A stretch of 64,000 nucleotides of DNA from Closterium sp. NIES-65 (taxonomy: Eukaryota; Streptophyta; Zygnematophyceae; Desmidiales; Closteriaceae), in NCBI GenBank assembly GCA_948144175.1, contig CANXME010002455.1, positions 62,001 to 126,000 on the forward strand, read 5' to 3'. Shown in pieces: positions 12,388 through 51,180 of the stretch (the first letter of the stretch is position 1; each line of letters starts with the position of its first letter). Position numbers and translations under genes: made by a program. The notes under the pieces are model-generated. The model searched no databases. It had not been told where the DNA came from and worked only from the letters and a program-made list of their open reading frames with translations.

Positions 12388-12513
12388 TGTGAAGAGATGA
12401 ATGAATGATGAACTAGGAAATGAGTTGGGTACAAATATGAAACCCTAGAAAGCTGTACCCCATACTGTCTACCCTAGTACAGCCTAGAAAGACTATAGCA
12501 TATAAGTTTGACA
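12388..12513 (-). repeat. 5' LTR of copia III
   Basis: 126 bp between the primer binding site (ending 12387) and 12513, written on the plus strand as TGTGAAGAG...GTTTGACA. It shares ttgggtacaaat, ctgtacccc and acagcct with the family LTRs. Confidence 0.8.
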
Positions 12514-12536
12514 CGTTCACCACCAGACCATTGTTG

Positions 12537-12677
12537 TGTCAGTAGATCTGCACTGTGGATGCCTGATTGATCCTGGAGAGGGTTAGATGCGCGTTCGCCT
12601 GGGGGGTTATGGGCATACTGGCCCGCTACTGAAACAAGCCCTTTTATCCCAATGGTCTAGTGGTTGGGATTCTGACA
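12537..12677 (+). repeat. 5' LTR of TRIM copy 2
   Basis: 141 bp, nearly identical to 12771-12912, with a handful of differences such as ctggagaggg/ctaaagaggg and gcatactggc/gcgcactgac. Confidence 0.9.
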
Positions 12678-12710
12678 TGGTATCAGAGCGGTCTCGGGTT
12701 CGATTCCCGG
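12653..12710 (+). promoter_or_regulatory. tRNA-like fold with A and B boxes in TRIM copy 2
   Basis: A-box TGGTCTAGTGG (12653-12663) lies in the LTR end and B-box GGTTCGATTCC (12697-12707) in the interior. Arms: D-like GTC/GAT (12655-12657 with 12668-12670), anticodon-like TCTGA/TCAGA (12671-12675 with 12683-12687, 7-nt loop), T-like TCGGG/CCCGG (12694-12698 with 12706-12710, loop TTCGATT). Compared with copy 1 the second T-stem pair changes from T-A to C-G, a compensatory difference. The acceptor stem is not conserved. RNA polymerase III transcription is inferred, not shown. Confidence 0.6.
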
Positions 12711-12770
12711 TGTATGCACATGTAGGCCGTTGCCGTTGTGCTTAGTCCTGGGCCTCCCAGTGTGGGGGGG

Positions 12771-12912
12771 TGTCAGTAGATCTGCACTGTGGATGCCTGA
12801 TTGATCCTAAAGAGGGTTACATGCGCGTTCGCCTGGGGGGTTATGGGCGCACTGACCCGCTACTAAAAACAAGCCCTTTTATCCCAATGGTCTAGTGGTT
12901 GGGATTCTAACA
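12771..12912 (+). repeat. 3' LTR of TRIM copy 2
   Basis: 142 bp. It follows the polypurine tract at 12764-12770 and ends ctaaca, one transition from the ctgaca end of its partner. Confidence 0.9.
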
Positions 12913-13612
12913 TGTTGGCTGCAACAGAGCGTTGCTCCGCACAGTCATGTCGAGATGTTGTAGTAGTCCATGTGATGATTGTCATTACTGAAGGTGCTGA
13001 TAGTGCTTGTGTTGCCGATCACTTGAGCGATGCGCGTTCAGTTATCATATGGCGGCTTCATGAGGATTCAATCCAACCCCCCCTGCCCACCAAAACAAAA
13101 AGAAAAATAAAAATAAATCAAATCAAACGAGAAAAAGTGTATGGTCTGAGAGATTGATTATTTTTGTAAATACCTTACAAGCCCGAGTGAGAGAGCGAGC
13201 AACATTTGATTAACAATATGGAAAGGATGAAACGTGAATGAATACATTAGCGAACTTGAAGTACAAAAAAACCATAGTAACTACAACTCGTAATATTTTG
13301 GCTGCTTATACATAAGTTTCGAAACAACTCAAGCGTCTGGTATGGTCGCGGTTTACCAATCTAGGTGTATGGCTCGGAGACGTTGGCGCGAATGGTAGCG
13401 GATCTTGATCCAGTGAGGTGGTAACGTGATGAGCAACCATAAGGTGGATGAGAAGTGTTATACGTGAATGTAGGATGATGCAAAGTAAGGAGATTTAAGT
13501 GGCCAGCGTAGCGCGCTATGTACAATTTTGTTGGGCGCACTATTTTATATGATATCGACAAATCCATTCCAATTTATGGCACCAAGTAGATTGGTATTCA
13601 TATGGTATGTTT
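12913..13612. other. AT-rich non-coding interval
   Basis: About 700 bp of lower-GC sequence without repeats matching the surrounding elements and without a convincing reading frame. I see nothing functional in it. It carries the TSD copies of TRIM 2 (12913-12917) and copia IV (13608-13612), so it is older sequence into which both inserted. Confidence 0.6.
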
Positions 13613-29033: not shown

Positions 29034-29770
29034 TCCCCTTCGTTTCTGGAGTGTCGACGTGGTCAGCTTCGGTGACGTGGTCCAATCCGGTGAGCAGCAT
29101 GCAGTACTCGAATTTCCCCTTTGGTAGCTTCTTGGTGAGATAATCTGCTGCCATCTCGGTGGTCGGGCAGTAATCCAGCTGGAGTTTTCCTTTCTCAATT
29201 TCGTCTTTCACGAAGAAGTATCGCAGTGCGATATGCTTGGTTCTGTTGGCGAAGCCATTCTTGTTCGCGATCCGTATCGCGAACTGGTTGTCGCAGAAAA
29301 GCGAGAAGCTGGGTACTTTCGCAATTTTCGCTTCTTCCAGCAGTTCGCGCAGGTACAGGCCCTCCTTGGTAGCAGTGCAGAGAGCAATATACTTTGCTTC
29401 AGCAGATGATAGTGCGACGAGTTCCTGCTTACTTGATTGCCAGGAGATAGTTCCGACGGGCTCAAGACGGTAGATGTAGCCGGTGCGAGAGCGACGATCG
29501 ACACGATCAGCAGCATGATCAGCGCCGACGTAGCCGAGTAGTTTTAGGTCGGTCGTCGTGTTCTTGTGATATGTTAAGCCAACTGTTGGCGTCGAGATGA
29601 AGTAGAGAAGGGCGCGGTTGAGTTCCTTGAGGTGACGTTATTCTGGGCGCTTGAGGTAGGTCGCTAGTTGATTGGCGCTGTAGGATAAGTCCGGTCGGCA
29701 CGTAACGGCGGCAAAGAGTAGGCACCCTAGTTTCTGTTGATATTCCTGGATTTCAGCAGGCGGCAGTGGG
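29034..29770 (-). pseudogene. Element B pol, C-terminal part (RT end and RNase H)
   Basis: Continues the B polyprotein in phase once element A and one TSD copy are discounted: YQQKLGCLLFAAV, CRPDLSYSANQL, then RNase H with RRSRTGYIY, SWQSSKQELVALSSAEAKYIAL, FCDNQFAIRIA, NRTKHIALRYFF and MAADYLTKKL. There is one in-frame TAA at 29638-29640, and the first Asp of the RNase H DAD motif is Gly (GYVGADHA). The reading runs to the polypurine tract and LTR at 29032. Confidence 0.92.
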
Positions 29771-29902
29771 TGTCAAACATTATATATGTTATGCTTGTGT
29801 AGGCTACAGTGGGTTAGCCTATAGGGGGTACACAATTCTAGGGTTTCCTACTTGTACTCATTTCACTGCTAGTTCATTCATTCCTGTTCGCTTATTCTCA
29901 CA
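29771..29902 (+). repeat. 5' LTR of element A
   Basis: 132 bp, TG...CA, identical to 36506-36637. Contains tatatatg near 29781 as the only TATA-like text. Confidence 0.97.
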
Positions 29903-29931
29903 TGGTATAGAGCGGGTCCTTCTACGGACCG
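29903..29931 (+). promoter_or_regulatory. Primer binding site and adjacent hairpin of element A
   Basis: TGGTATAGAGC directly follows the LTR. Then GGTCC, a 6-nt loop and GGACC form a hairpin at about 29915-29930. Copies IV, V and VI carry GTTCCC...GGGAAC(T) at the same place, so pairing is kept while sequence differs. Confidence 0.7.
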
Positions 29932-29994
29932 TTTTTTTTTGGGCCCACCGAAGCGCCCCCCGAGGCGCGATCTTTTTTTTAGCGACCCCTCGGG

Positions 29995-30900
29995 TCGCCA
30001 TTTCCCCTGCGGCCCCGCCGCCTTCACTGACGCGGCCCCGCCGCCCTCTCTGTCGCGGCCCCGCCGCCTGCTCTCACGCGGCCCCGCCCCGGCTTCTACG
30101 CGGCCCCGCCCCGGCTTTCACGCGGCCCCGCCGACGGCTTTGTCGCGGCCCCGCCCAGGCCCTTACGCGGCTCCGCCGCCTGCTCTCCCGCGGCCCCGCC
30201 CCGGCTCCTTCGCGACTCCGCCGCCTGCTCTCACGCGGCCCCGCCCCGGCTCCTTCGCGGCCCCGCCACCTGCTCTCGCGCGGCCCCGCCCCGGCTTCTA
30301 CGCGGCCCCGCCCCGGCTTTCACGCGGCCCCGCCGACGGCTCTGTCGCGGCCCCGCCCAGGCCCTTACGCGGCCCCGCCGCCTGCCCCCGTCGCGGCCCG
30401 GTCACCTCCTGACGGCCCCGCCGTCCCTTCGTGACGGCCCCGCCGTCCCTTCTTGACGGCCCCGCCGTCCCCTCCTGACGGCTCCTGCCGTCCCCTTCTA
30501 CCGGCCCCGCAACTGCACCTGCTGGCCCCGCCGCTGCACCTACCGGCCCCCCACCACCCACCCCCCCTTTTCCCGTCGCCCGTCGCGGCTCCTTCGGGGG
30601 CCGCAGCAGAGGGGTGGCAGGTGTGTGGCCTCCCCTGCTTCTCCTCCTCCTTCATCTCCCACTGCAGCAGCCGAGCCGCTCACCTGCAGCAGCCGAGCCG
30701 CCCCACAGCCGAGCCGCCCTGCCGCCGAGCCGCCGGGTCGCTGAGCTGCTGAGCTGCAGTTGCTGCCGAGCCGCCCTGCCGCCAAGCCGCCGAGTCACCG
30801 AGCTGCTGAGCTGCAGTTGCTGCTGAGGCGCCTTGCCGCCGAGCCGCCCGAGTCGCCCGAGCCGCCGAGCCGCCGAACTGCCGAGCCGCTGGGTCGCCGA
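29995..30900 (+). repeat. GC-rich tandem leader of element A
   Basis: Units such as cgcggccccgccccggct and acggccccgccgtcccttc repeated to about 30500, then cagccgagccgcc-type repeats to about 30900. No stable protein reading. A splice-donor-like CTG/GTGAGC lies at 30918-30926. Confidence 0.85.
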
Positions 30901-31031
30901 GCCTACTCTTCCCACCACTGGTGAGCTCTTGCCCTGCTAGCACACTGCGCGTCGCCTACTTGCCTGCCTGCCTGCCTTTTGGCTTGCCTGGCTGCCTGCC
31001 TCCCTGCTGCTAGTCCTGCTCCTGCTTCTAC

Positions 31032-34000
31032 TTGCGGAGCCACATGCAACCCCAGCGACGCCGGCGTGAGTCCCTCACGCCCCAGCAGCTGCGTGAGTGG
31101 TACGCTGGTTGGGGCTGTAGGGGTGGCGACGCTACTCCTACTACCACTCCTGCTGCTTCTACTCGTGGTGGCGGCCAGATGCAGCTCCCGCGACCCTCTC
31201 GCGTGTCTCTCACGCCTCGCCAGCTTCGTGAGTGGTACGCTCAGAGTGGAGGGTCTCTCACTGCTGTTCGCTGCTCTTACGTGATTCGCACTGGTACTCG
31301 GACTGGTCAGCCTTGTGGGACACGTAGTCATACACCGTCCCGCTGCTTCGCCCGTCTGAGCGACGCCTGGCGTACCGTGTTTGGCGACGAGGCTGAGCTT
31401 CCCGACTGGGTGGAGTTACTTAGGCAGAGGGTGGATATATATGCTCTTGACTATGATGCTATTCTCACTGCCATGTATGCATTGCCTACTAGTGCTGACA
31501 GTGCCGGTCACCTGTGCGTCCCGCCTGACCCAGGTATAGGACCTGCTGCTCTAGCTACTGGTGAGGCTGCTGCTCTAGGTGCTAGTGAGTCTGCTTCCTC
31601 AGGTGCGGGTGAGGCTGCGCTCTCAGGTACCGCGTTGGCTTCGGCCTCCCTCACCTTTACACTTGACTCTGGGGCTTCTCGCTCCTTCTTTCGGGACCGC
31701 ACCACACTCACGCCGCTTGGTCGGCCGGTTGCAGTCTCCCTGGCTGACCCCTCTGGGGGTCCTGTCCTCGCTCACTTCTCCACTGTCCTCCCGTGTCCGG
31801 CTGCCCCCTCGGGCACCCTGTCTGGCCTGTACCTCCCCTCGTTCTCGACGAACTTGGTGAGTGGTGCAGACCTACAGGATGCGGGGGTTCACCAGTTCAC
31901 TCCTGCGAGTCAGCGGGTGACCCACTGCACGGACGCACGCACAGGCCGGCACCTGGCCACGTTCTCGCGTCGGCCGGGGTCGAGCCTCTACACCCTGACC
32001 ACTGAGTCTCCTCCTGTCCCCGCGTCCAGTCAGGTAGCAGCGTCGGGTCAGGTGTTTGCTGCTGCGTCCAGGTCTGGTCCTGAGTCTGCCCCCTGTACTT
32101 GTCGCCTCCTGTCTCACGAGACTCTCCTGTGGCACCACCGTCTTGGTCACCCCTCCTTGCCCCGTCTTCGGAGCATGGCTTCCCGTGTCCTTGTCTCTGG
32201 TCTTCCCCAGTCTCTCCCTCCTCTCCCCTCCGGGCCAGGACCTTCCTGTGTCCCCTGTGTCGAGGGTCGCCTCCGGGCTACTCCTCACTCCTCCCACTTC
32301 CCCCCGACAGAGGCTCCCCTGCAGACGCTTCACATGGATGTGTGGGGCCCAGCCCCCGTCCGTGGGCAGGGTTACGAGCGCTACTTCCTGTTGGTGGTTG
32401 ACGACTACTCGCGTTACACCACAGTCCTCCCCTTGCGCAGCAAGGGTGAGGTCACTGAGGTGCTGATCGACTGGATCCGCGAGGCTCGTCTCCAGCTCAG
32501 GAAGAGCTTCGGCTCGGACTTTCCTGTTCTGCGTCTGCACTCTGACAGAGGCGGAGAGTTCTCTTCTCGCCTTCTGCGAGACTACTGTCGTGCACGGGGG
32601 ATCCGCCAGACCTTCACGCTTCCGGACTCACCACAGCAAAATGGGATTGCTGAGCGCCGCATTGGCATGGTCATGGATGTCGCTCGTACGTCCATGATGC
32701 ATGCGGCTGCCCCCCATTTTCTGTGGCCGTTTGCGGTGAGGTACGCGGCGCATCAGCTCAACCTTCACCCCCGGGTCTCTCGGCCTGCGATGTCCCCAGC
32801 CTTGCTGTGGACGGGGAAGGTTGGCGATGCGTCTGTGTTCCGTGTCTGGGGATCTCGGGCGTTTGTCCGCGACTTGTCTGCGGACAAGCTGTCCCCTCGT
32901 GCTGCTCCCTGTGTCTTCCTTGGCTTCCCCACTGACGCCCCAGGGTGGCAGTTTTACCACCCCTCCTCTCGTCGTGTTCTGTCCTCCCAGGACGTCACGT
33001 TCGACGAGTCAGTCCCCTTCTACCGTCTCTTCCCCTACCGCACTCCTTCCCTCCCCCCTCCCCCGGACTTCCTTGTGCCGGTTCCCCCCCCGGTAGACCC
33101 CCTCCCCCCTCAGGTTCCTGCCCCCTCAGGTGTGTCCCAGGTAGACGCCGTTGACCCGGTCGAGGTTACTGGTGACTCTGGTGCTGCTGCGGGTGCTGAG
33201 CCTGGGGGTGCTGACTCTGGGGGTGCTGTGCGCGGGGGTGCTGAGCCTGGGGGTGCTACTGCTGGGGGTGCTGGGCCTGAGGGTGCTACTGCGGAGGGTG
33301 CGGAGCCTGGGGGTGCTGAGCCGGGGGGTGCTGTGCCTGGAGGTGCTGGGTCTGGGGGTGCTGGGTCGGGAGCTGCTGAGCCTGGGGGTGCTGCGTCTGG
33401 AGCTGCTGAGCCCGGGGTTTCTCCTGCTGCTGCGTCTCGCCGGGAGCCCCTCTCTCCACAGGAGCTGCGCGAGTGGTTTGCTCGCCGCTGGAGGCGTGCT
33501 GCTGAGTCTGGAGGTGCTGCTGGAGCTGGAGCTGCAGCTTCTTCGACCGTCGAGGGTGCGGGTGCTGCCGGTCCCGGAGCTCCTGGACCTGCGGGTCCTC
33601 CTGGAGCTGGAGCTGCTGAGGGCGTTGGTGCTGAGCCTACTGCTGTTGGTCCTGCCGCTGGAGGTGTGGGTGGCGCTGGTGCTGTCGCTGAGGGTGCTGG
33701 TGCTGTCCCTGCTGCGTCTGGAGCTGCTGAGCCTGGGGTTTCTCCTGCTGCTGCGTCTCGCCGGGAGCCCCTCTCTCCACAGGAGCTGCGCGAGTGGTAC
33801 GCTCGCCGCTGGAGGCGTGCTGCTGAGTCTGGAGGTGCTGCTGGAGCTGGAGCTGGAGCTTCTTCGACCGTCGAGGGTGCGGGTGCTGCCGGTTCCGGAG
33901 CTGCTGGACCTGCGGGTCCTCCTGGAGCTGGAGGTGCTGAGGGCGTTGGTGCTGAGCCTACTGCTGTTGGTCCTACCGCTGGAGGTGTGGGTGGCGCTGG

Positions 34001-36299
34001 TGCTGTCGCTGAGGGTGCTGGTGCTGTCCCTGCTGAGTCTGGAGCTGCCGCGCGGCCTCGGCCGTACTTCGTTCCGCTCCTTCAGCAGGTTCTTGGTCTT
34101 TCTCCTTCGGTAGAGTGTCCACCGCCTGTCCAGTCGCAGTCACTGTTGGAGCCTTCCTCTCCTCTGCCTGCTCCCTCTCCTTACACTGGTCCTACTGGAG
34201 GTCTTGCTGAGCGTCGTGAGCCTGCGTCTCGTCCCGCGTCGCCTGTTCGTGCTGCTCGCGCTAGTGGTCGCGGTTCGCGTCAGCGTCCTCCTCCTGTCCC
34301 TGGCACGCACCGGATGTCTCTGCGTCCGTCCACTGCTCCTCTGCGTGCCCCTTTGCCTTCTCCTCCTGAGTCCTCTCTTCCTGCGCTTGCCGACCCTGAG
34401 TCGGACTCTCTTCGCGCTGCCAGTCCTACTGTCACGCGTCTGCTTGCTACTCTCGTCACTGACCCCTCTTTTGAGTCCACTGCTGCGTCTGCTCTAGTCG
34501 CTGAGCTCGTTGACTTTGCTGCTCGCTGTCGTCTCGACTACGCTGCTGGTCTTGTTACTGAGTCTGCGTCTGTCTGTCCTCCGTCCGTCGGGGGTGAGTG
34601 TGCTCTTGGCACGGACGTCCTAGAGGACAGACAGGAGGAGTTACAGTGTCTAGCGGCTGCTTCACCTCATCTCGCGTCTGTACTGCTTGCCCCTGAGGGA
34701 GACCCGGATGCACTAGACATCCCGACTCCGCGTTCTTACGCGGAGGCCGTAGAGGGTCCCTACTCCTCTCAGTGGCAGGCAGCTATGGATGCAGAGATGG
34801 CTTCCTGGAAGTCCACAGGCACCTACGTTGACGCAGTTCCCCCTCCTGGGGCGAACATCGTCAGTGGCATGTGGATCTTCCGGGTGAAGCGGCCGCCGGG
34901 CTCTCCACCTGTCTTCAAGGCGCGGTACGTTGCTCGTGGCTTCAGTCAGCGGCAGGGAGTTGACTACTTTCAGACCTTCTCTCCCACCCCGAAGATGACC
35001 ACTCTTCGGGTGCTGCTGCACATAGCCGCTCAGCGCGACTACGAGCTTCACTCTCTTGACTTCAGCACTGCGTTCCTGCAGGGTAGCCTGCACGAGGAGA
35101 TCTGGCTGCGCCGTCCACCTGGCTTCTCAGGGACTTTCCCTCTTGGCACCCAGTGGAGCCTCCGACGGCCAGTCTACGGTCTCCGCCAGGCACCGCGTGA
35201 GTGGCACGACACACTGAGGACTACGCTTGCGGCTCTTGGGTTTGCTCCTTCTACTGCTGACCCGTCGCTGTTTCTGCGCACCGACACTTCACTGCCGCCG
35301 TTCTACATCCTCGTGTACGTCGACGACTTGGTCTTTGCCACAGCGGACACTGCTGGACTCGCCCACGTGAAGTCCGAACTGCTGAAGAGACACACGTGCA
35401 CAGACCTGGGTGAACTGCGCAGCTACCTTGGCTTGCAGATCACTCGGGACAGAGCACGCCGCACCATTACCTTGACTCAGTCACACATGGTGCAGCAGGT
35501 CCTTCAGCGCTTCGGCTTCACGTACTCCTCGCCTCAGGCCACTCCTCTGCCTACTCGCCACTCACTCTCAGCTCTGCCTTCGGATGAGTCCGTAGAGTCG
35601 AGTGGTCCGTATGCAGAGCTTGTTGGCTGCCTCATGTACCTGATGACCTGCACACGACCTGACCTTGCATATCCTCTGAGCATTCTTGCACGCTATGTTG
35701 CTCCTGGGAGACACAGACCAGAGCACATGGCTGCAGCGAAGAGGGTATTGCGCTACCTGTGCAGTACGTCGGGCATGGGGCTTGTGCTTGGAGGGCGGAG
35801 TCCAGTGGTCCTTACCGGCCACGCGGACGCTTCTTGGGCTGACGACCAGGCTACGCAGCGGTCGTCACAGGGTTACACCTTCAGCCTTGGTTCCGGCTCT
35901 GTCTCGTGGCGGTCTACTCGCTCGTCTTCAGTTCTCGGCTCCAGTTGTGAGGCTGAGATCTACGCCGGGGCCATGGCTGCACAGGAGCTTCGCTGGCTCA
36001 CCTACCTGCTGACTGACCTTGGAGAGCCGCCTCGTTCTCCTCCAGTGCTGTACGTAGACAACAAGGCCATGCTGGCCTTGTGTCGAGAGCAGCGCTTGGA
36101 GCACAGAACGAAGCACATTGCTCTCCGCTACTTCCTTGCTCGTGAGCTGCAGCAGCGTGGTCAGTTGCGACTTGCGTACGTGGCCTCTGAGGCCAACACT
36201 GCTGATGTCTTCACCAAGGCACTCGCGCCTTGTGACCATCAGCGCTTTTGCACCCAGCTGGGTCTTGTGCCTGTCTTGCCTCACTTGCTCTCCTCTTGA
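31032..36299 (+). CDS. Copia Pol polyprotein of element A, intact but lacking the Gag core
   Basis: 1755 codons without a stop. Start taken at ATG 31032; the N-terminal Gag core (MATPSVL... in copies IV, V) is absent, so the frame begins in the Gag tail with two LTPxQLREWYA motifs (about residues 13-27 and 58-72). Then a zinc-like C81-x13-C95-x4-H100-x4-C105; protease LDSGAS near 212; pre-integrase WHHRLGH and CVPCVEG (about 370-420); integrase DVWGP (about 434), SDRGGEF (about 503), NGIAERR (about 539), all three acidic residues present; a GAEPG-rich spacer with a 107-residue tandem duplication (about 790-1003); RT with VYGLRQAPREW and YVDD at 1429-1432; RNase H with HADASWADD, CEAEIYAG and VDNKAMLALC. 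It could supply protease, integrase and RT in trans. Gag would have to come from another copy, or an upstream start or splice is used. Confidence 0.93.
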   Translation: MRSHMQPQRRRRESLTPQQLREWYAGWGCRGGDATPTTTPAASTRGGGQMQLPRPSRVSLTPRQLREWYAQSGGSLTAVRCSYVIRTGTRTGQPCGTRSHTPSRCFARLSDAWRTVFGDEAELPDWVELLRQRVDIYALDYDAILTAMYALPTSADSAGHLCVPPDPGIGPAALATGEAAALGASESASSGAGEAALSGTALASASLTFTLDSGASRSFFRDRTTLTPLGRPVAVSLADPSGGPVLAHFSTVLPCPAAPSGTLSGLYLPSFSTNLVSGADLQDAGVHQFTPASQRVTHCTDARTGRHLATFSRRPGSSLYTLTTESPPVPASSQVAASGQVFAAASRSGPESAPCTCRLLSHETLLWHHRLGHPSLPRLRSMASRVLVSGLPQSLPPLPSGPGPSCVPCVEGRLRATPHSSHFPPTEAPLQTLHMDVWGPAPVRGQGYERYFLLVVDDYSRYTTVLPLRSKGEVTEVLIDWIREARLQLRKSFGSDFPVLRLHSDRGGEFSSRLLRDYCRARGIRQTFTLPDSPQQNGIAERRIGMVMDVARTSMMHAAAPHFLWPFAVRYAAHQLNLHPRVSRPAMSPALLWTGKVGDASVFRVWGSRAFVRDLSADKLSPRAAPCVFLGFPTDAPGWQFYHPSSRRVLSSQDVTFDESVPFYRLFPYRTPSLPPPPDFLVPVPPPVDPLPPQVPAPSGVSQVDAVDPVEVTGDSGAAAGAEPGGADSGGAVRGGAEPGGATAGGAGPEGATAEGAEPGGAEPGGAVPGGAGSGGAGSGAAEPGGAASGAAEPGVSPAAASRREPLSPQELREWFARRWRRAAESGGAAGAGAAASSTVEGAGAAGPGAPGPAGPPGAGAAEGVGAEPTAVGPAAGGVGGAGAVAEGAGAVPAASGAAEPGVSPAAASRREPLSPQELREWYARRWRRAAESGGAAGAGAGASSTVEGAGAAGSGAAGPAGPPGAGGAEGVGAEPTAVGPTAGGVGGAGAVAEGAGAVPAESGAAARPRPYFVPLLQQVLGLSPSVECPPPVQSQSLLEPSSPLPAPSPYTGPTGGLAERREPASRPASPVRAARASGRGSRQRPPPVPGTHRMSLRPSTAPLRAPLPSPPESSLPALADPESDSLRAASPTVTRLLATLVTDPSFESTAASALVAELVDFAARCRLDYAAGLVTESASVCPPSVGGECALGTDVLEDRQEELQCLAAASPHLASVLLAPEGDPDALDIPTPRSYAEAVEGPYSSQWQAAMDAEMASWKSTGTYVDAVPPPGANIVSGMWIFRVKRPPGSPPVFKARYVARGFSQRQGVDYFQTFSPTPKMTTLRVLLHIAAQRDYELHSLDFSTAFLQGSLHEEIWLRRPPGFSGTFPLGTQWSLRRPVYGLRQAPREWHDTLRTTLAALGFAPSTADPSLFLRTDTSLPPFYILVYVDDLVFATADTAGLAHVKSELLKRHTCTDLGELRSYLGLQITRDRARRTITLTQSHMVQQVLQRFGFTYSSPQATPLPTRHSLSALPSDESVESSGPYAELVGCLMYLMTCTRPDLAYPLSILARYVAPGRHRPEHMAAAKRVLRYLCSTSGMGLVLGGRSPVVLTGHADASWADDQATQRSSQGYTFSLGSGSVSWRSTRSSSVLGSSCEAEIYAGAMAAQELRWLTYLLTDLGEPPRSPPVLYVDNKAMLALCREQRLEHRTKHIALRYFLARELQQRGQLRLAYVASEANTADVFTKALAPCDHQRFCTQLGLVPVLPHLLSS
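33400..34041 (+). repeat. 321-bp tandem duplication in the IN-RT spacer of element A
   Basis: Two direct copies, 33400-33720 and 33721-34041, each encoding 107 residues beginning at GVSPAAASRREPLSPQEL-type sequence. They differ at few positions, for instance Phe/Tyr in REWFA/REWYA. The other copies of the family here show one unit. Confidence 0.85.
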
Positions 36300-36315
36300 C
36301 TTCACTTGTACTGTG

Positions 36316-36361
36316 ACATATATATATACCTGCTCTTGCTTGTCTAGTTTTATATATATGT
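36316..36361 (+). promoter_or_regulatory. AU-rich inverted repeat in the 3' UTR of element A
   Basis: Left arm acatatatatata (36316-36328), right arm tatatatatgt (36351-36361), about 22-nt loop containing gctcttgcttg. The same arrangement is present in copies IV, V and VII between the pol stop and the 3' LTR. Confidence 0.6.
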
Positions 36362-36505
36362 CTGTACTCCTGCATGTGAACTGGCCTCTGGCCCTGCTCT
36401 TGTGCTCGGACTGTGTGGTGACTTTGTGATCCACCCTGAGCTTGCTTTGCTTTGCTTGACTGGTCTTGTGACCCCTTGTTCTCCCCCACTTTGCCTATGG
36501 GGGTG

Positions 36506-36637
36506 TGTCAAACATTATATATGTTATGCTTGTGTAGGCTACAGTGGGTTAGCCTATAGGGGGTACACAATTCTAGGGTTTCCTACTTGTACTCATTTCA
36601 CTGCTAGTTCATTCATTCCTGTTCGCTTATTCTCACA
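36506..36637 (+). repeat. 3' LTR of element A
   Basis: 132 bp following the polypurine tract at 36496-36505; the outer flank is GTGGG. Confidence 0.97.
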
Positions 36638-43056: not shown

Positions 43057-43308
43057 TGTCGAGAGTAAAAGGAATTAAGTTGAAAGGTGGGGCCTAGGCT
43101 TAGGAGCCTAGGCCCGAACTTAGGTGTCGAGTAGGTTTCCCTAGGCGAGGTATCGAGTGAGTTGGAAGAGAGAAATTGGAGAATGAGTTTCACTATAGGT
43201 TTCAAGAAACATATAGCATAGGAAACAAAGTTGGTGCACCACCTACAAAGTACAATAACTACACTACAACTACAAGCAGTTATAAAATATGACAAACATA
43301 TTTCGACA
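43057..43308 (-). repeat. 3' LTR of element N
   Basis: 252 bp, identical to 44102-44353; contains the palindrome-like gcctaggcttaggagcctaggc. Confidence 0.93.
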
Positions 43309-43814
43309 CGCCCCCATAATGCTTGTAGGTAGAAATGTAGTTACGCCCCCTGAGGGGGTACACCATGCAAAATAATCACAAGCAACAGCAGGTAATGCAG
43401 GCGGGCTAACCTTAAAGAGTTACCCCCTCCATCTCCTCACCCTCCTCCTTCCCCTCCCCCACACTGCTGCAGGAGCAGCAGAGAAGGGGGGGAAGAGAGG
43501 AGAGGTGGAGGGACGGCTGCATGTTGCCTCACACCCGCCACCCCGGTACCACTCCCCCTGCTCCCCCACATCCTCACACCTTCTCCCCCCAGCGGCAGCT
43601 GCAGCGGTGGGACTGAAAGAAGGAGGAGGGGAAGGGAGAGAGGTGACGCCACACTCCAACACCCTCCACCCCCATACCCTCCTCCCCGCGGCTGCAGGGA
43701 GACAAAGGAGGAGGGGGGTGGGAAGGAAGAAAGCCGCAGAGCGGCGAAAAGGTGTCGGTGCAGTGGTGTCAGGGGCGGCTTCAGGGAGTGCAGGGGCGGA
43801 AAGGCCCGTCGCGG

Positions 43815-43975
43815 GCCAGTGCCACGGGGCGCACGACGGGTAGAATAGAAGGGCCCGATCGTGTGCCTCGGGGCGCACGACGAGCAGGGCACCATCGTGT
43901 GCCACGGGGCGCACGATGGGCAGACAAAGGGCACCGTCGCGTGCCACGGGGCGCGCGACGGGCAGGGAAGGAGTC
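43815..43975. repeat. Tandem repeats inside element N
   Basis: About four units of roughly 38-44 bp containing gtgccacggggcgcacgac. Translation in one frame gives RAPRGTR repeats, but no known domain. Confidence 0.7.
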
Positions 43976-44101
43976 ACTCGCCCGTGGGCGGGACAATGTA
44001 AAAATAAAATCGTCACGCACCCTAGGCGCGCGACCGGAAAACCTTAGCAGCGGAAGTGTAAAGTGGGCCCACAGGCCAGGACGAACCTAGCTCTGATACC
44101 A

Positions 44102-44353
44102 TGTCGAGAGTAAAAGGAATTAAGTTGAAAGGTGGGGCCTAGGCTTAGGAGCCTAGGCCCGAACTTAGGTGTCGAGTAGGTTTCCCTAGGCGAGGTATCG
44201 AGTGAGTTGGAAGAGAGAAATTGGAGAATGAGTTTCACTATAGGTTTCAAGAAACATATAGCATAGGAAACAAAGTTGGTGCACCACCTACAAAGTACAA
44301 TAACTACACTACAACTACAAGCAGTTATAAAATATGACAAACATATTTCGACA
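44102..44353 (-). repeat. 5' LTR of element N
   Basis: 252 bp; the primer binding site lies directly inside at 44089-44101. Confidence 0.93.
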
Positions 44354-50299: not shown

Positions 50300-51180
50300 G
50301 TGCTCACCGGACAGGGCAGCTCGGCCGGCTCGGCTGTAGGGCGGCTCGGCGGCTCGGCGGCCCGGCTGTGGGGCGGCTCGGCTGCTGGGCGGCTCGGCTG
50401 CACAACGGCTCGGCTGCTGGGCGGCTCGGCTGCACAGCGGCTCGGCTGGTGGGCGGCCGGGCGGCTCGGTGGCCGGGCGGCTCGGCTCCTCCGGTACTAG
50501 GCGCCGCGGTGGTCGGCTGCTCGGGTGCGCGCTGCAGGGTGGTGCGGCGGTCGGCGGCTCGGGCGGCGCGGCAGGAGGGGAGAGCGGCGGGGCCGCAGTA
50601 GACGGGCGGCGGGGCCCTTTGGAGTAGGGCGGCGGGGCCGCAGGTGTAGGGCGGCGGGGCCGCAGCAGACGGGCGGCGGGGCCGCGACAGTAGGGCGGCG
50701 GGGCCGGCCGAGTAGGGCGGCGGGGCCTGTGAAGTAGGGCGGCGGGGCCGCAGGTGTAGGGCGGTGGGGCCGCAGCAGTAGGGCGGCGGGGCCGGTAGAG
50801 TAGGGCGGCGGGGTTGCAGTAGACGTGCGGCGGGGCCGGTAGTATAGGGCGGCGGGGCCCGTGAAGTAGGGCGGCGGGGCCGCAGGTGTAGGGCGGCGGG
50901 GCCGCGATGTAGGGCGGTGGGGCTGCGACAGTAGGGCGGCGGGGCCGCTAAAGCAGGGCGGCGGGGCCGCTAAAGCAGGGCGGCAGGGCCGCGAAGTGGG
51001 GCGGCGGGGCCGCGACAGTAGGGCGGGGCGGCGGGGCCGCTAAAGCAGGGCGGCGGGGCCGCGACAGTAGGGCGGCGGGGCCGCGACAGTAGGGCGGCGG
51101 GGCCGCAAAAGAAGGGCGGCGGGGCCGCGACAGTAGGGCGGCGGGGCCGCTAGGGGAGGGAAGGCCGCTAGGGCGGCTCG
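50300..51180 (-). repeat. GC-rich tandem leader of copia V
   Basis: Dozens of units around agtagggcggcggggccgc (plus-strand reading), preceded nearer to gag by gggcggctcggctgctg units. A splice-donor-like CCG/GTGAGC lies at 50304-50311, 67 bp before the gag ATG. Confidence 0.88.

Follow-up and report, generated by a model that had tools for sequence, protein, structure and literature searches.

The stretch of Closterium sp. NIES-65 DNA analyzed here (64,000 nt, hereafter the window) contains, at positions 12532-12917, a complete terminal-repeat retrotransposon in miniature (TRIM). Direct reading and repeat comparison revealed two long terminal repeats (LTRs), a primer-binding site (PBS), a 93-bp internal region, and a polypurine tract (PPT). 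Both the element and its family have the hallmarks of a TRIM, namely two LTRs, a PBS, a PPT, no genes, and a length below 1 kb. A pair of boxes of the kind found in type-2 RNA polymerase III (Pol III) promoters straddles the junction of the 5′ LTR and the PBS, and both boxes recur across the copies of the family, which were counted in the 874-Mb genome assembly. A plastid-like stretch of this assembly (L045, contig C114) carries chlI, whose top match is 96% identical and whose nearest named relatives are Roya (89%), Netrium (89%), and Zygnema (87%). Roya is a member of Zygnematophyceae, so the host would be a conjugating green alga, provided that the contig comes from it. The features of the element are as follows.

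12532-12536 and 12913-12917: 5′ and 3′ copies of the target-site duplication (TSD) TGTTG, by direct reading.
12537-12677, + strand: 5′ LTR, 141 bp, TGTCAG...CTGACA, a direct repeat of 12771-12912.
12635-12645, + strand: CAAGCCCTTTT, the predicted Pol III start region (CAA) plus a run of four T (T4) at 12642-12645; predicted 5′ copy of the terminal repeat (R) of the RNA.
12646-12670, + strand: hairpin in the unique 5′ region (U5) of the LTR, with a 7-bp stem (ATCCCAA/TTGGGAT) and the A box as its 11-nt loop, from the computed fold and pair table.
12653-12663, + strand: A box TGGTCTAGTGG in the LTR end, an exact match to the consensus.
12678-12689, + strand: PBS TGGTATCAGAGC, complementary to the 3′ end of initiator methionine tRNA (tRNAiMet), CCA included.
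12694-12710, + strand: T-arm-like hairpin TCGGG-TTCGATT-CCCGG holding the B box, from an Rfam clan match and the computed fold.
12697-12707, + strand: B box GGTTCGATTCC behind the PBS, an exact match to the consensus.
12764-12770, + strand: PPT GGGGGGG, by direct reading; relatives have a G-rich tract at the same place.
12771-12912, + strand: 3′ LTR, 142 bp, starting TGTCAG, with a second A box at 12888-12898 and no B box behind it.
12877-12880, + strand: T4 in the 3′ LTR, by direct reading; predicted Pol III terminator and 3′ copy of R.

The two boxes are located on the strand of the element and are separated by 33 nt, with the LTR end (12677) between them. The original prediction, which was made from the letters of the window, had placed an A box in the LTR end and a B box directly behind the primer site, and this arrangement was borne out by reading and by a scan of both strands of the window. 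The scan, which used the box consensus, returned one A/B pair compared to 0.005 expected from 200 first-order Markov sequences, and a chance pair was therefore rejected. The primer site matches a real primer, since 6 of the 33 genomic matches to a land-plant tRNAiMet query were 100% identical to it.

The recurrence of the A box was surveyed at 93 places in 90 loci, which were fetched from the first 100 listed matches to the PBS plus B box. An A box with at most three mismatches was present at the fixed LTR place in 74 of the 93, and 62 of these were exact. By reading, the other 19 consist of six shifted or 10-nt forms of the same hairpin and 13 places with a different upstream sequence, which by eye are mostly LTRs of other elements. 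In a larger set of 213 LTR ends, a few of which are misplaced matches with unusual loops like GGGTTATGG, the A box was exact in 174. For the B box, we examined 42 junctions that were picked without the B-box pattern and are partly copies selected for overall likeness. The B box was exact in 26, carried one mismatch in five and two mismatches in two, and was missing in nine. Two of these nine continue into an LTR start, one leaves its locus, and most of the others resemble the leaders of other elements located behind a TRIM LTR.

The TRIM belongs to a real, once active, high-copy family. A 201-bp TRIM query returned 668 candidates from the genome; 40 of these were scored, and 47 matches were listed. 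The exact PBS plus B-box pattern matched 3276 sites (1589 + 1687), composites included, and the reversed control pattern matched none (0 + 0). Among 74 parsed members with both LTRs, a contig-order sample, 50 were flanked by an exact 5-bp TSD and two by a TSD with one mismatch. Of the remaining 22, 18 were read as units within arrays or composites, and four (L060, L076, L083, and L092) were not. Such short TSDs are those of integrase-type insertion. Two subfamilies are distinguished because the internal region is 93 bp in 35 of the 74 members and 69 bp in 30. The sampled loci include near-duplicates with the same flanks (L007/L022 and L132/L133) and one overlapping pair (L062/L063). The TRIM motif pattern had no matches in the viral_contigs and genome_contigs collections, the latter of which is prokaryotic; records close to the alga's own genome may have been excluded. 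Tandem arrays of the form LTR-int-LTR-int-LTR are present at L102, L108, L144, and L017, and the outer 5-bp flanks match in L108 and L144.

The best supported structure around the A box is a hairpin rather than an arm of a tRNA. The arms of its 7-bp stem are located at 12646-12652 and 12664-12670, and the minimum free energy (MFE) fold adds two weak pairs within the loop. Only two of the 25 hairpin columns, 12652 and 12664, have a minor base at 5% or more, and the two are pair partners (A-T 187, G-C 12, A-C 5, G-T 1, others 2). The G-C pair occurs in LTRs of both start types, which were assigned from the starts themselves (AGGTCC starts set apart from type1), and in L080 pair 5 has also changed, from C-G to T-A. 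Given the relatedness of the copies, the covariation amounts to a handful of events.

The original prediction had also drawn D-, anticodon-, and T-like arms as a tRNA-like fold built jointly from the LTR and the primer site, and only some of the arms survived. The T-arm-like hairpin and an anticodon-like stem (12671-12675/12683-12687) can be drawn, while the D arm is replaced by the 7-bp hairpin: the three arms with a D arm reach −11.2 kcal/mol compared to −16.2 kcal/mol with the hairpin in its place, and the MFE of the stretch is −22.9 kcal/mol. Both sides of the anticodon-like stem are dictated by other constraints: CTGACA repeats the LTR start TGTCAG in inverted form, and TCAGA belongs to the PBS. 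An acceptor stem could not be seen. ARAGORN reported no tRNA in the window at standard settings (deliberately lax settings gave a meaningless 448), and the covariance-model check proposed at the outset gave no Rfam match at the gathering threshold. With permissive filters, the best match to clan CL00001 within 12500-13000 scored 10.6 bits and covered only the T-arm-like stretch at 12695-12709 (one lower-scoring CL00001 match at this stretch was omitted from the output). Based on the hairpin, the otherwise explained anticodon arm, the missing acceptor stem, and the absence of ARAGORN and Rfam gathering matches, a cloverleaf is not the likely fold, and a true tRNA was rejected.

Sequence constraint was evaluated in 232 aligned LTR copies (217 distinct sequences), with tests that treat columns as independent. 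A minor base reaches 5% or more in 27 of 97 columns of the unique 3′ region (U3) and in 3 of 37 columns of the stretch 12634-12670 (Fisher p = 0.019), and in none of the 11 A-box columns. The mean divergence of 12634-12670 is also lower than that of U3 (p = 0.015). In the 20 copies most like the query, from which L010 and L022 were excluded because their flanks are the same as those of other copies, deviating letters numbered 0/220 in the 5′ A box, 3/220 in the 3′ A box, 62/1940 in U3, and 5/240 in the PBS. Thus, the A-box half of the module appears to be spared.

The T4 run has a fixed position as well. In the window copy, the only T4 runs are the one that immediately precedes the hairpin (12642-12645) and its counterpart in the 3′ LTR, and across the family 192 of 213 LTR ends have a T4 shortly before the A box. 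Among the 20 close copies, it is present in 19 of the 5′ LTRs and 19 of the 3′ LTRs; the only further occurrences are in two flanks and in one LTR end that has been altered. The TRIM LTR contains no TATA and one T4, while the LTR of a Copia element in the window (29770-29902) contains TATATA and no T4.

Our current hypothesis, to which we assign a probability of about 60%, is that Pol III makes the genomic RNA of the TRIM, using a tRNA-type promoter that is divided between the LTR and the leader. Here, the A box in U5 and the B box just behind the PBS would constitute a split type-2 promoter. Transcription is predicted to start near 12636 (CAA, 12635-12637), to pass through the boxes, the PBS, and the PPT, and to end at the T4 at 12877-12880. 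The predicted 245-nt RNA would have the order R-U5-PBS-PPT-U3-R, with R corresponding to AAGCCCTTTT (10 nt), and would carry R at both ends, as needed for LTR reverse transcription. It would be primed by tRNAiMet, and its copying and integration would be carried out in trans by Copia-type enzymes. Since there is one B box per element and it lies in the internal region, the full promoter would require a complete 5′ LTR with its leader and would be missing from solo or 3′ LTRs.

Two rearranged loci, each a single case, are consistent with the predicted RNA ends. In array L102, ...AAGCCCTTTT forms the exact end of one unit, and the next LTR start follows directly, which fits the predicted 3′ end since a copied RNA would stop there. 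At L065, two outer LTRs flanked by the TSD TAGCT consist of TRIM U3 and a foreign end that resembles other LTRs. This fits the predicted R because the switch occurs just before the T4 region. Loci L062/L063, where R-U5 lies directly behind the end of another LTR, were rejected as evidence for the RNA 5′ end, as they may be a simple insertion into an LTR.

Several observations weigh against a Pol III transcript. Taken alone, the A box is not significantly depleted of variable columns relative to U3 (0/11, Fisher p = 0.062), nor is its mean divergence significantly lower (p = 0.14). In some copies the stem is kept and the A box is damaged (TGGTCTAGTGA in 7 of 213, and 10-nt loops). Conservation of the B box does not exceed that of its leader: in the 20 close copies, 4/220 letters deviate in 12698-12708, a stretch scored one base off the box (12697-12707), compared to 18/1013 in 12709-12760. 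Hence, of the expected conservation of both boxes across copies, recurrence in most copies held and a B box spared beyond its leader did not, at least as it looks in such young copies. The 5′ T4 is just behind the predicted start and would have to be passed. Lastly, the lack of a further T4 between the two runs has a probability of 0.74-0.76 by chance and, at 0.74, was rejected as evidence.

Other repeats in the window include a second TRIM and candidate partner elements.

1406-1706, + strand: partial TRIM of the same family, from the subfamily with the shorter internal region; its 5′ LTR is cut short and joined to a different sequence.
29770-36637: young Copia element whose two 133-bp LTRs are identical (TATATA, no T4); its long open frame matches RVT_2 and an integrase core.
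43057-44353, − strand: small element flanked by two identical LTRs of 252 bp, with a leader, TGGTATCAGAGCTAGGTTCGTCCTGG..., complementary to tRNAiMet beyond the usual 12 nt.

The partial TRIM has an altered PBS (TGGTATCAGAGT at 1498) and the A-box loop TGGTCTTGTGG in its 5′ copy. Copia elements are present in the window, with RVT_2 found in four of eight open frames scanned, including that of 29770-36637, and the PBS of the Copia element (TGGTATAGAGC) is one base short of the tRNAiMet type. Its open frame contains a 339-bp direct repeat (33389-34048, 97%, offset 321 bp), and further direct repeats a few hundred bases apart are located at 50533-51160. Elsewhere in the genome, composites carry a foreign 5′ LTR joined exactly at the PBS to the TRIM internal region, mostly followed by a TRIM LTR (L060, L064, L074, L083, L089, L093, L095, L111, L132/L133, and L142), and in some a further PBS-like leader lies behind (e.g., L064, L089, L095, and L111). 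The foreign LTRs were called Copia-type by eye from their likeness to 29770-29902, with L141 being unclear, and the one in L060 is nearer to the LTR of the 43057-44353 element. These composites look like strand transfer with other, co-packaged elements.

The rival that survives best, although we regard it as unlikely, is an ordinary Pol II TRIM in which the hairpins of U5, PBS, and leader serve the initiation of reverse transcription or packaging and the A box is only a conserved U5 loop. It draws on the U5 hairpin being the best supported structure, given the covariation at 12652/12664 and the pair-5 change in L080, on the copies that retain the stem around a damaged A box, and on the computed fold, which favors the hairpin. 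However, that covariation comes from few events among related copies, and the exact B box at tRNA spacing, the absent TATA, and the position of T4 are left unexplained.

Less probable still is that the B box is an extended PBS, complementary to the T arm of tRNAiMet, given that T arms are quasi-palindromic. An extended PBS does exist in the 43057-44353 element, where complementarity to tRNAiMet continues past the 12-nt PBS (shuffle P = 0.0005), and the TRIM leader shows marginal complementarity (P = 0.04, one gap). In contrast, TRIM leaders fit the sense B box at every fixed position, and their complementarity is weak (P 0.039-0.07 in three leaders). Furthermore, none of the six other leaders compared, the extended PBS of 43057-44353 included, contains a B box. 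Because extended complementarity is clear in the latter element and only marginal in TRIM leaders, we read the B box as a Pol III box in sense orientation, and a plain extended PBS was rejected. It is possible that the B box evolved from an extended PBS, since the complement of a T arm is nearly a T arm.

The LTR end presumably resembles the 5′ half of a eukaryotic tRNA-Glu. It is very improbable that the module is a promoter-inactive vestige of a tRNA gene fragment or of a tRNA-derived short interspersed nuclear element (SINE) that was trapped where LTR and PBS meet. A SINE insertion was proposed by Kojima as the source of such TRIMs (PMC10886601), but here the changes among subfamilies fell in U3 and spared the LTR half of the module, and the two halves flank an intact PBS exactly, unlike a plain insertion.

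Returning to the split Pol III promoter, a broader proposal falls somewhat short of even odds. According to it, the TRIM would represent a class of elements in which the LTR supplies the A box and the terminator and the leader supplies the B box, so that intact elements would have a promoter at their 5′ LTR and nowhere else. In this class, T4 would leave R at both ends, the A box would double as the loop of the U5 hairpin, and the B box may derive from an extended PBS.

Small elements of related design are known. tRNA-derived SINEs are short, high-copy elements with an A/B-box promoter. The Closterium TRIM differs from them in having LTRs, a PBS, a PPT, and the 5-bp TSDs of integrase-type insertion, and it is thus not a SINE, which lacks LTRs and inserts by target priming. 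The novelty that the original prediction saw in an element at once SINE-like and LTR-like did not hold up, as TRIMs with a tRNA-derived Pol III promoter have been published as Helenus (TRIMp3; Kojima 2024, PMC10886601). According to that report, the Helenus module is located inside the LTR, its boxes are conserved (A mostly TRGCY and YGG, B GGTTC), its TSDs are 5 bp in fungi and plants, and Selaginella is the only plant host. The Closterium TRIM is similar to Helenus in its tRNA-type A and B boxes, PBS, PPT, and 5-bp TSDs, and its dimensions (141-bp LTR, 93-bp internal region) are close to those in Selaginella (120 and 85 bp). The B box contains GGTTC; the A box has the terminal YGG, with TGGTC in the place of TRGCY. 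Unlike Helenus as described there, the LTR contains only the A-box half, and the leader carries the B box. This separation is based on the text description, and the layout of Helenus-1_SMo could be the same as the split layout found here.

Cassandra is a 5S-derived TRIM with a 5S rRNA promoter inside each LTR (PMC10886601, PMC7215508), and its RNA ends share an 18-bp duplication according to Kojima (PMC10886601). It resembles the Closterium TRIM as a small LTR element with a Pol III promoter and terminator (both predicted here) and tandem arrays, and differs in promoter type (5S rRNA compared to tRNA-type). Canonical plant TRIM/SMART elements, known from a lycophyte and algae and with tandem copies (Gao 2016, PMC4717578), share the size, gene-free structure, and tandemly arrayed copies. 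No Pol III promoter is reported for them in the main text of that paper, where the words promoter and tRNA do not occur (PMC4717578). In the open-licence literature, we found no description of a module split over LTR and leader with a T4 that would set both RNA ends and, also with alga names, no tRNA-promoter TRIM besides Helenus. The concept of a Pol III-promoter TRIM is therefore not new, given Helenus, and the split over LTR and leader is the variant described here.

If correct, the split promoter would mean that an LTR element can turn to Pol III without taking a whole small-RNA gene into its LTR, with promoter, terminator, and strand-transfer repeat packed in about 70 bp. It would extend the recently described Pol III-using (TRIMp3) class (PMC10886601). 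Solo LTRs would be silent, unlike those of elements with a whole promoter in the LTR. With 3276 exact PBS plus B-box sites, the TRIM may contribute Pol III promoters in large numbers to the genome of a streptophyte alga.
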